NCBI RefSeq assembly: GCF_964059955.1
Contig: NZ_OZ060924.1
Coordinates: 248,001-312,000, forward strand
Length of the DNA stretch: 64,000 nt
DNA from: Sodalis-like secondary symbiont of Drepanosiphum platanoidis
GTDB taxonomy: Bacteria; Pseudomonadota; Gammaproteobacteria; Enterobacterales; Enterobacteriaceae
Reading direction: 5' to 3'
Shown here in pieces: positions 25,994 to 27,663 of the stretch. Numbering within the stretch: position 1 is the stretch's first letter; each line of letters opens with the position of its first letter. Under the pieces are notes generated by a model, which saw nothing but the letters and a program-made list of their open reading frames with translations, ran no database searches and was not told the DNA's origin. Made by a program: the position numbers and the translations under genes.

Positions 25994-27085
25994 ATGACTT
26001 ATAAAGTTCTTGCTTTAAAATGGCGTCCTAAAAATTTCAATGAAGTTGTTGGTCAAAAACATATAATAAAACTATTAATTAATAGTTTATTTTTAAATAA
26101 AATTCATCATTCATATTTATTTTCTGGTACAAGAGGGGTTGGTAAAACTACTCTAGCAAGATTATTAGCTAAAGGATTAAATTGTTATGTTAATAATATA
26201 GGAATTCCATGCAATAATTGTAATAATTGTAAAGAAATAGAAAAAGGATATTTTATTGACTTAATAGAAATAGATGCAGCTTCTAAAACAAGAGTAGAAG
26301 ATACTTTAGATTTATTAAGTGGAATAAAATATATGCCTGTTAAAGGAAAATATAAAATATATTTAATTGATGAAGTACATATGCTTTCTCGTCATAGCTT
26401 TAATGCTTTATTAAAAACTTTAGAAGAACCTCCTCAACATGTTAAATTTTTATTTGCTACTAGTGATATAAATAAATTACCATCAACAATTCTTTCTAGA
26501 TGTTTACAATTACATTTAAAATGTATAAATGTTAAAAATATTAGTGATCGTTTAAAATTTATTTTAAAATCAGAAAATATAAAAATAGATAATAAATCAT
26601 TAGATTTAATATCTCGTTCCGCAAATGGAAGTATGAGAGATGCTCTTAGTTTAACTGATCAAGCTATTGCATTAGGAAATAATAAAATTTCATTTAATTC
26701 TATATCAGAAATGATTGGAATAATCAATATTGAACAACCAATATTAATTATTGAATTTTTAATAAAAAAAGATATTATTAATTTAATGAAAGAAATTTCT
26801 AAATGTGCAATCTATGGTATAGATTGGGATTCTCTTTTAAAAGAAATTTTAAAAATTTTGCATTATATTGCAATGAAAAAAATTCTTAAAGATAATTTTA
26901 TACATAATTTAGAATTCAATAAAGATATAATTAATAGAATTATAAATATTTCAAAAAATTGTTCTGGAAAAAATATTCAAAATTATTATAAAATAATAAT
27001 AACTGGTAGAAAAAATCTTTTATATTATCCTGAACAAAGAATTGGAGTAGAAATAATATTATTACAAATTATTCAATTTAATTGA
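25994..27085 (+). CDS. dnaX: DNA polymerase III clamp-loader subunit, short gamma-like form
   Basis: This is the motor subunit of the loader that places the beta clamp on DNA. It is only 363 aa against 643 (tau) and 431 (gamma) in E. coli. Present are Walker A GTRGVGKT (45-52), zinc Cys64, Cys73, Cys76 and Cys79, the Walker B region DEVH (126-129) and the SRC arginine finger (168-170). It ends after the collar domain III at RIGVEIILLQII. Domains IV and V, which bind DnaB and the polymerase alpha subunit, are absent. The programmed frameshift site lies beyond this point in E. coli and is also absent. A 92-bp palindrome starts 13 bp after the stop. Confidence 0.94.
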   Translation: MTYKVLALKWRPKNFNEVVGQKHIIKLLINSLFLNKIHHSYLFSGTRGVGKTTLARLLAKGLNCYVNNIGIPCNNCNNCKEIEKGYFIDLIEIDAASKTRVEDTLDLLSGIKYMPVKGKYKIYLIDEVHMLSRHSFNALLKTLEEPPQHVKFLFATSDINKLPSTILSRCLQLHLKCINVKNISDRLKFILKSENIKIDNKSLDLISRSANGSMRDALSLTDQAIALGNNKISFNSISEMIGIINIEQPILIIEFLIKKDIINLMKEISKCAIYGIDWDSLLKEILKILHYIAMKKILKDNFIHNLEFNKDIINRIINISKNCSGKNIQNYYKIIITGRKNLLYYPEQRIGVEIILLQIIQFN

Positions 27086-27098
27086 AATATATGATTTA

Positions 27099-27190
27099 TA
27101 TAAGTTTTTTAAAAAAATATTCAATTAATATTAATTTAAAAAATATTTTTTAAATTAATATTAATTGAATATTTTTTTAAAAAACTTATA
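27099..27190. repeat. 92-bp perfect palindrome (46-bp arms, no loop)
   Basis: Every base from 27099 to 27144 pairs with its mirror base in 27145-27190. I checked each position by hand, and symmetry breaks at 27098/27191. The arms include one C-G pair each at 27122/27167 and 27104/27185. It lies between dnaX and ybaB and could form a cruciform in DNA or a long hairpin in RNA. It may act as a dnaX terminator, but its length far exceeds need. Confidence 0.97.
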
Positions 27191-27291
27191 ATTAAATTTT
27201 AAAATTTTTTTTAAAAATAAAATTTAAAAAATAATAATTAATAAATATATTTATTTTGATATTTTAAAATTTTTCTTTTAGAGAGAAAATT

Positions 27292-27621
27292 ATGTTTAAT
27301 AAAGAAGATATTAATAATTTTATAAAACAAACTAAAATTGCTCAAGAAAAAATCAATATAATACAAAAAGAAATAAATAAACTTAAAATAATAGGAGAAT
27401 CTGGTGCTGGATTGATAAAAGTTACTATAAATGGTTCATATAATTGTATAAAAGTTAATATTAATAAAAATGCATTATGTGATAATAAAAACATATTAGA
27501 AGATTTAATTGCTTCTGCATTTAATGATGCAATTAACAAAATGATAAAAATTAAAAAAAATAAAATATCTTTATTATCTGGTAATGAAGAGTTACTTGCT
27601 AATTTAAAATTACTTTTTTAA
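27292..27621 (+). CDS. ybaB: Nucleoid-associated protein YbaB/EbfC
   Basis: This is a small dimeric DNA-binding protein of the YbaB/EbfC family. At 109 aa it equals E. coli. It has the central GESGAGLIKVTINGSYNC strand region and the C-terminal helix with LIASAFNDAINK. It stands between dnaX and htpG as in E. coli, but recR, which normally follows it, has been lost. A GAGAG ribosome binding site precedes the ATG. Confidence 0.93.
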   Translation: MFNKEDINNFIKQTKIAQEKINIIQKEINKLKIIGESGAGLIKVTINGSYNCIKVNINKNALCDNKNILEDLIASAFNDAINKMIKIKKNKISLLSGNEELLANLKLLF

Positions 27622-27663
27622 AATATTTTTTAAATAAAAATTTAATAGATTGAGGAATCTATC

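Follow-up and report, generated by a model that had tools for sequence, protein, structure and literature searches.

The window, a stretch of 64,000 nucleotides with a GC content of 18.9%, contains a perfect palindrome without a spacer in the interval between dnaX and ybaB. The features of this locus are as follows.

25994..27085, plus strand: dnaX, short form, 363 aa (NCBIfam TIGR02397, 410.9 bits; PRK14961, 363 positions)
27099..27190, no strand: perfect spacerless palindrome of 92 bp with arms 27099-27144 and 27145-27190, defined by exact reverse-complement identity
27131..27158, no strand: AT-only central part of the palindrome, about 28 bp, read from the sequence
27191..27226, plus strand: short AT inverted repeat downstream of the palindrome, including a T8 run; read from the sequence and forming a further small hairpin in the predicted RNA structure
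27292..27621, plus strand: ybaB, encoding a nucleoid-associated protein (TIGR00103), the downstream neighbour in the same direction as dnaX

An earlier note on this DNA had described a loopless palindrome of 92 bp lying 13 bp past the dnaX stop, with matched C/G positions in each arm. Reverse-complement identity and the dnaX open frame (25994-27085) confirmed this description. All 46 of 46 pairs match and the limits of the symmetry are exact, as the next three pairs outward are mismatched. Each arm holds two G/C positions (G 27104 and C 27122, mirrored in the other arm). Between the dnaX stop (27085) and the palindrome there are 13 bp, and between the palindrome and the ybaB start (27292) there are 101 bp. 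No other palindrome in the window comes close in length, the runner-up having arms of 24 bp. Folded alone as DNA, it was predicted to form a hairpin of 44 pairs with a 4-nt loop (-37.2 kcal/mol, z -14.9). The Rfam scan of the window returned only a tRNA, with no match at the palindrome.

The DnaX product of 363 aa shares 52% identity with residues 1-360 of E. coli DnaX and fits the N-terminal dnaX model along its whole length. NCBIfam has a dnaX family of 363 aa, and in reduced relatives most dnaX open frames have 362-391 aa. Judged from these matches and lengths, the short dnaX is the ordinary form in reduced symbionts, for which no palindrome event is needed. We therefore rejected the idea that the palindrome is the scar of a deletion of the dnaX 3' half, since other reduced genomes have their dnaX end at a similar place. 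The earlier note had combined this deletion with a fold-back event; the fold-back part gained support from a sister palindrome at rpiA and from a genome-wide excess of hairpins, both described below. Immediately downstream of ybaB (27622-27663), recR is missing and htpG follows directly, whereas in E. coli recR lies between ybaB and htpG.

Perfect hairpins across the genome

The genome comprises 472 kb in two contigs of 459,102 and 12,989 bp. Its small size and GC content, together with its relatives, suggest a symbiont lifestyle. We counted hairpins in stretches covering about 395 kb (84%) of it, taking as genes the open frames of at least 70 aa and the tRNAs, so that a few spacers may hide unrecognised small genes. 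The sampled intergenic DNA amounts to 72.7 kb with 6.6% GC, and Markov models of orders 2 and 4 served as the null. Perfect intergenic hairpins with a loop of 0-10 were far more frequent than in the simulations, both for arms of at least 18 (36 observed, 0.4-0.6 simulated) and for arms of at least 20 (19 observed, 0.0-0.1 simulated). In coding DNA the excess was mild, with 9 perfect hairpins of arm at least 14 compared with 2.7 in codon shuffles. One 34-bp perfect palindrome lies within the recB coding sequence (L122:15725-15758).

The dnaX palindrome, with its 46-bp arm, is the second longest member of this large class in the sampled genome. The two extreme cases are accompanied by a series of shorter perfect hairpins with arms of 18-30, many of them with spacers of 1-9. 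An order-4 Markov model trained on AT-rich sequence from the window was used to simulate 3 Mb, in which spacerless arms reached 20 at most. Since the simulations yield almost no arm of at least 20, an arm of 46 bp is not a product of chance. The simulations of window parts and of intergenic DNA thus bear out the earlier claim that a chance origin is essentially excluded. The extreme AT content of the spacers probably helps the hairpin excess, although it was insufficient to produce it in the null model.

Among inverted repeats near spacers that scored at least 20 (mismatch penalty 3), 22 of 22 were free of mismatches, and imperfect ones occurred only at lower scores. This suggested that the top 22 are either young or kept perfect. 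Were palindromes to erode by point mutation once made, imperfect versions ought to be abundant; their absence at high scores points to fast turnover or to re-perfecting of the arms by fold-back copying, as in quasipalindrome mutagenesis (PMC6357072).

The palindrome at rpiA-glyQ

The longest palindrome in the sampled genome lies between rpiA and glyQ.

L146:7447-7550 (G000:C1:357447-357550): perfect spacerless palindrome of 104 bp, 52 of 52 pairs, between rpiA and glyQ
L146 7515-8180, minus strand: rpiA, with its 3' end inside the right arm of the palindrome

At 104 bp it exceeds the dnaX palindrome (92 bp), and the final 11 codons of rpiA, with the stop, lie in its right arm. In an alignment of RpiA from 24 relatives and E. 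coli, the stop falls at the usual position of the C-terminus. The C-terminus reads ...IGKNKSINTIKNIN in this genome, ...IGTPDGVKTIVK in E. coli and ...IGTKNGVKTIVKNN in another relative. The left arm, in the spacer, is the exact inverse of the coding arm. As the conserved C-terminus of RpiA is encoded in the right arm and the spacer holds the inverse of that arm, the coding arm is ancestral and the arm in the spacer is the copy. Similarity within the arm covers few residues, so the assignment relies as much on an alignment that runs to the stop without gaps as on identity. On this reading of the alignment, there is strong evidence that the rpiA palindrome arose by inverted duplication and that the polarity of the event can be read.

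A comparable reading at dnaX was sought in relatives, as the earlier note had proposed. In the dnaX-ybaB spacers of four reduced relatives we found no conserved stem; the longest arms were 6-9 bp and the spacers are too diverged to align. Because these spacers cannot be aligned and the comparison covered a single genome of the genus, the origin of the dnaX palindrome is argued by analogy with its sister at rpiA.

Terminator, artefact and repeat readings

We considered whether the dnaX palindrome is an intrinsic terminator or a stabiliser of the mRNA 3' end, made perfect by selection on RNA pairing. Its position 13 bp past a stop codon suits this role, as does the very stable hairpin predicted for the RNA of 27086-27230 (-47.4 kcal/mol, z -12.7), and both very long palindromes sit at gene 3' ends. 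Terminators are expected to avoid divergent spacers, to lie near the upstream stop and to be followed by a U-tract. However, a U-tract directly past the dnaX stem is missing: the bases after the stem are ATTAAATTTTAAAA, and the T8 run in 27191..27226 does not adjoin it. The terminator scan did not call the palindrome either, though its rule of 3 G-C pairs is unmeetable there. Buchnera Rho-independent terminators (PMC3091783) likewise place a hairpin soon after the stop codon; the symbiont hairpin differs from them in having no adjacent U-tract and a far longer arm and in belonging to a class without gene-end bias.

The placement of the class as a whole also argues against termination. The 97 intergenic hairpins with arms of at least 14 in 395 kb fell into co-directional, convergent and divergent spacers in numbers of 58, 6 and 33, against 54, 11 and 32 expected from spacer length. 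In co-directional spacers the mean relative position of the hairpins was 0.47, without bias to gene 3' ends, and the 8 bases past the stem held 3.40 T on the transcribed strand and 3.83 on the other. Since the hairpins are spread by spacer length, with no gene-end or U-tract bias, they are not terminators as a class, and we rejected a class-wide terminator role on placement. Conventional terminator-like hairpins, whose stems contain G+C and which have A/T tracts, still occur in the genome (for example L141:4567-4612 and L140:7994-8035), and Rho is retained, with 419 residues aligned to the E. coli protein at 94% identity. Together with the spacers of the four reduced relatives, which have no such stem, these results make the terminator or stabiliser reading unlikely for the dnaX palindrome. 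The suggestion of an oversized terminator in the earlier note found no support in the bases past the stem or in the strand, spacer-type and gene-end distribution of the class.

Amplified DNA can yield fold-back chimeras, and the complete absence of a spacer in both extreme palindromes would suit an artefact, either an inverted chimera of whole-genome amplification or a long-read fold-back in the assembly. Yet a single short read spans 92 bp or 104 bp, and a consensus requires most molecules to carry the palindrome. Both extremes are moreover accompanied by the shorter perfect hairpins, many of which have spacers, and the excess is stronger in spacers, where real mutations are tolerated, than in coding DNA. 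We consider an amplification or assembly artefact quite unlikely. That the dnaX palindrome is a copy of a REP, BIME, MITE or other mobile or dispersed repeat is very improbable: AT palindromes are dispersed all over the genome, but the best other matches of the dnaX palindrome are AT-rich DNA of 66-86% identity and no second copy, no 20-mer of the dnaX or rpiA palindromes is shared with any third place in the sampled 395 kb, and no common core was visible among the hairpins compared.

Proposed template switching and the repair genes

We propose that the dnaX palindrome is probably an inverted duplication produced by a template switch (fold-back) and tolerated in a genome poor in repair functions. 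An exact inverted copy adjoins its source at both loci (46/46 at dnaX, 52/52 at rpiA), and at rpiA the conserved coding C-terminus distinguishes the old arm from the new. At dnaX, the nascent 3' end would fold back on a small AT palindrome, or cross to the other strand at the fork, would copy about 46 just-made bases in inverted orientation, and would then go back to the original template. One of the two dnaX arms would accordingly be ancestral. The AT-only part at 27131..27158 may include the pre-existing small palindrome that primed the fold-back. The loop of the fold-back would fall within the symmetric centre, so no spacer would be visible.

Template switching is known to make perfect stems in a single event (PMC8794818). 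In E. coli it also perfects quasipalindromes, a process that RecBCD probably restrains (PMC6357072). The perfect hairpins described by Monttinen and Loytynoja (2022, PMC8794818) are like the present case in that one event places a perfect inverted copy beside its source, as with the coding source arm and the spacer copy at rpiA. They differ in that they concern microRNA and rRNA genes and were traced by ancestral reconstruction, whereas here spacerless arms of 46 and 52 bp are known from one genome of a bacterial symbiont. At the E. coli quasipalindrome hotspots (PMC6357072), inverted repeats are similarly perfected when a folded-back end primes synthesis at the fork, and exonucleases and RecBCD restrict this; those reporters, however, record corrections inside an 18-bp quasipalindrome, while here whole long arms and a genome-wide pattern are seen. 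Palindromes cleaved by SbcCD in E. coli (PMC6265447 and references therein) share the long perfect form and can likewise fold into a hairpin where the DNA is single-stranded at the fork; the symbiont differs in having neither SbcC nor SbcD, so that this control is absent. Our search of the literature on palindromes or terminators in endosymbionts found no direct precedent.

SbcC, SbcD, RecJ, MutS and the large subunit of ExoVII (XseA) were not found in the whole genome, in searches that gave matches in most control genomes. The suggestion in the earlier note that SbcC and SbcD are absent thus held. A Metallophos match in a 243-aa open frame was rejected as SbcD because it did not match SbcD. 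In the 84% of the genome that was sampled, searches for RecR, RecO, RecF, RuvA, RuvB and MutL gave no match. RecA, RecB, RecC, RecD, SbcB (ExoI), RuvC and RNase III are present, in addition to Rho. Similarity to polA at L143:9795-10667 spans only residues 2-292 of the E. coli protein, the 5' nuclease part; no match to the polymerase part turned up in the 84% of the genome covered.

We suggest that the palindrome persists because SbcCD, RecJ, ExoVII and MutS have been lost and drift acts strongly in lineages of this kind, so that repair loss may be a contributing cause. The earlier note had offered nuclease absence or selection on the element as explanations of persistence; the former agrees with the gene searches, and selection is not needed. 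The presence of RecBCD and ExoI counts against template switching, as both limit it in E. coli.

SbcD was absent in eight reduced relatives and present in one relative of free-living size. Hairpins were counted in 80 kb of each reduced relative that was sampled: with arms of at least 14, G006 had none in 80 kb although SbcD is absent there, G010 and G021 had few, and G018 showed a small excess. Since SbcD is also absent in relatives with few or no hairpins, the excess cannot be put down to its loss by itself. We therefore rejected SbcCD loss as the sole cause and regard it as permissive at best. In G007 (L160-L163), 10 perfect AT hairpins with arms of at least 14 were found in 8.3 kb of spacer, a clear excess over the 0.1-0.2 expected.

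By itself the dnaX palindrome belongs to a known kind of mutation; of greater interest is the load of palindromes across the genome. We tentatively raise the possibility, which we hold less likely to be right than wrong, of a palindrome-mutator state: without several exonucleases, mismatch repair and SbcCD, and on spacers of about 7% GC, template switching would continually create and re-perfect inverted repeats, and fold-back duplication would be a main force shaping intergenic DNA. The genome offers a bacterial example of the fate of long palindromes without the usual palindrome controls, in which one case separates source from copy. In close strains of the symbiont, template-switch rates, the polarity of the arms and their decay would be directly measurable. 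The spacer hairpins of reduced genomes, easily taken for terminators, might partly be mutational debris, which such strains would test.

The second contig of 13 kb (L120:1-12989, G000:C2) carries thiC, thiE, thiF, thiG, thiH, thiD, panB, panC and a possible replication protein, named from reading the translations, and has partial DNA matches to plasmids of Candidatus Erwinia haradaeae. Its putative thiamine and pantothenate genes fit a nutritional insect symbiont.
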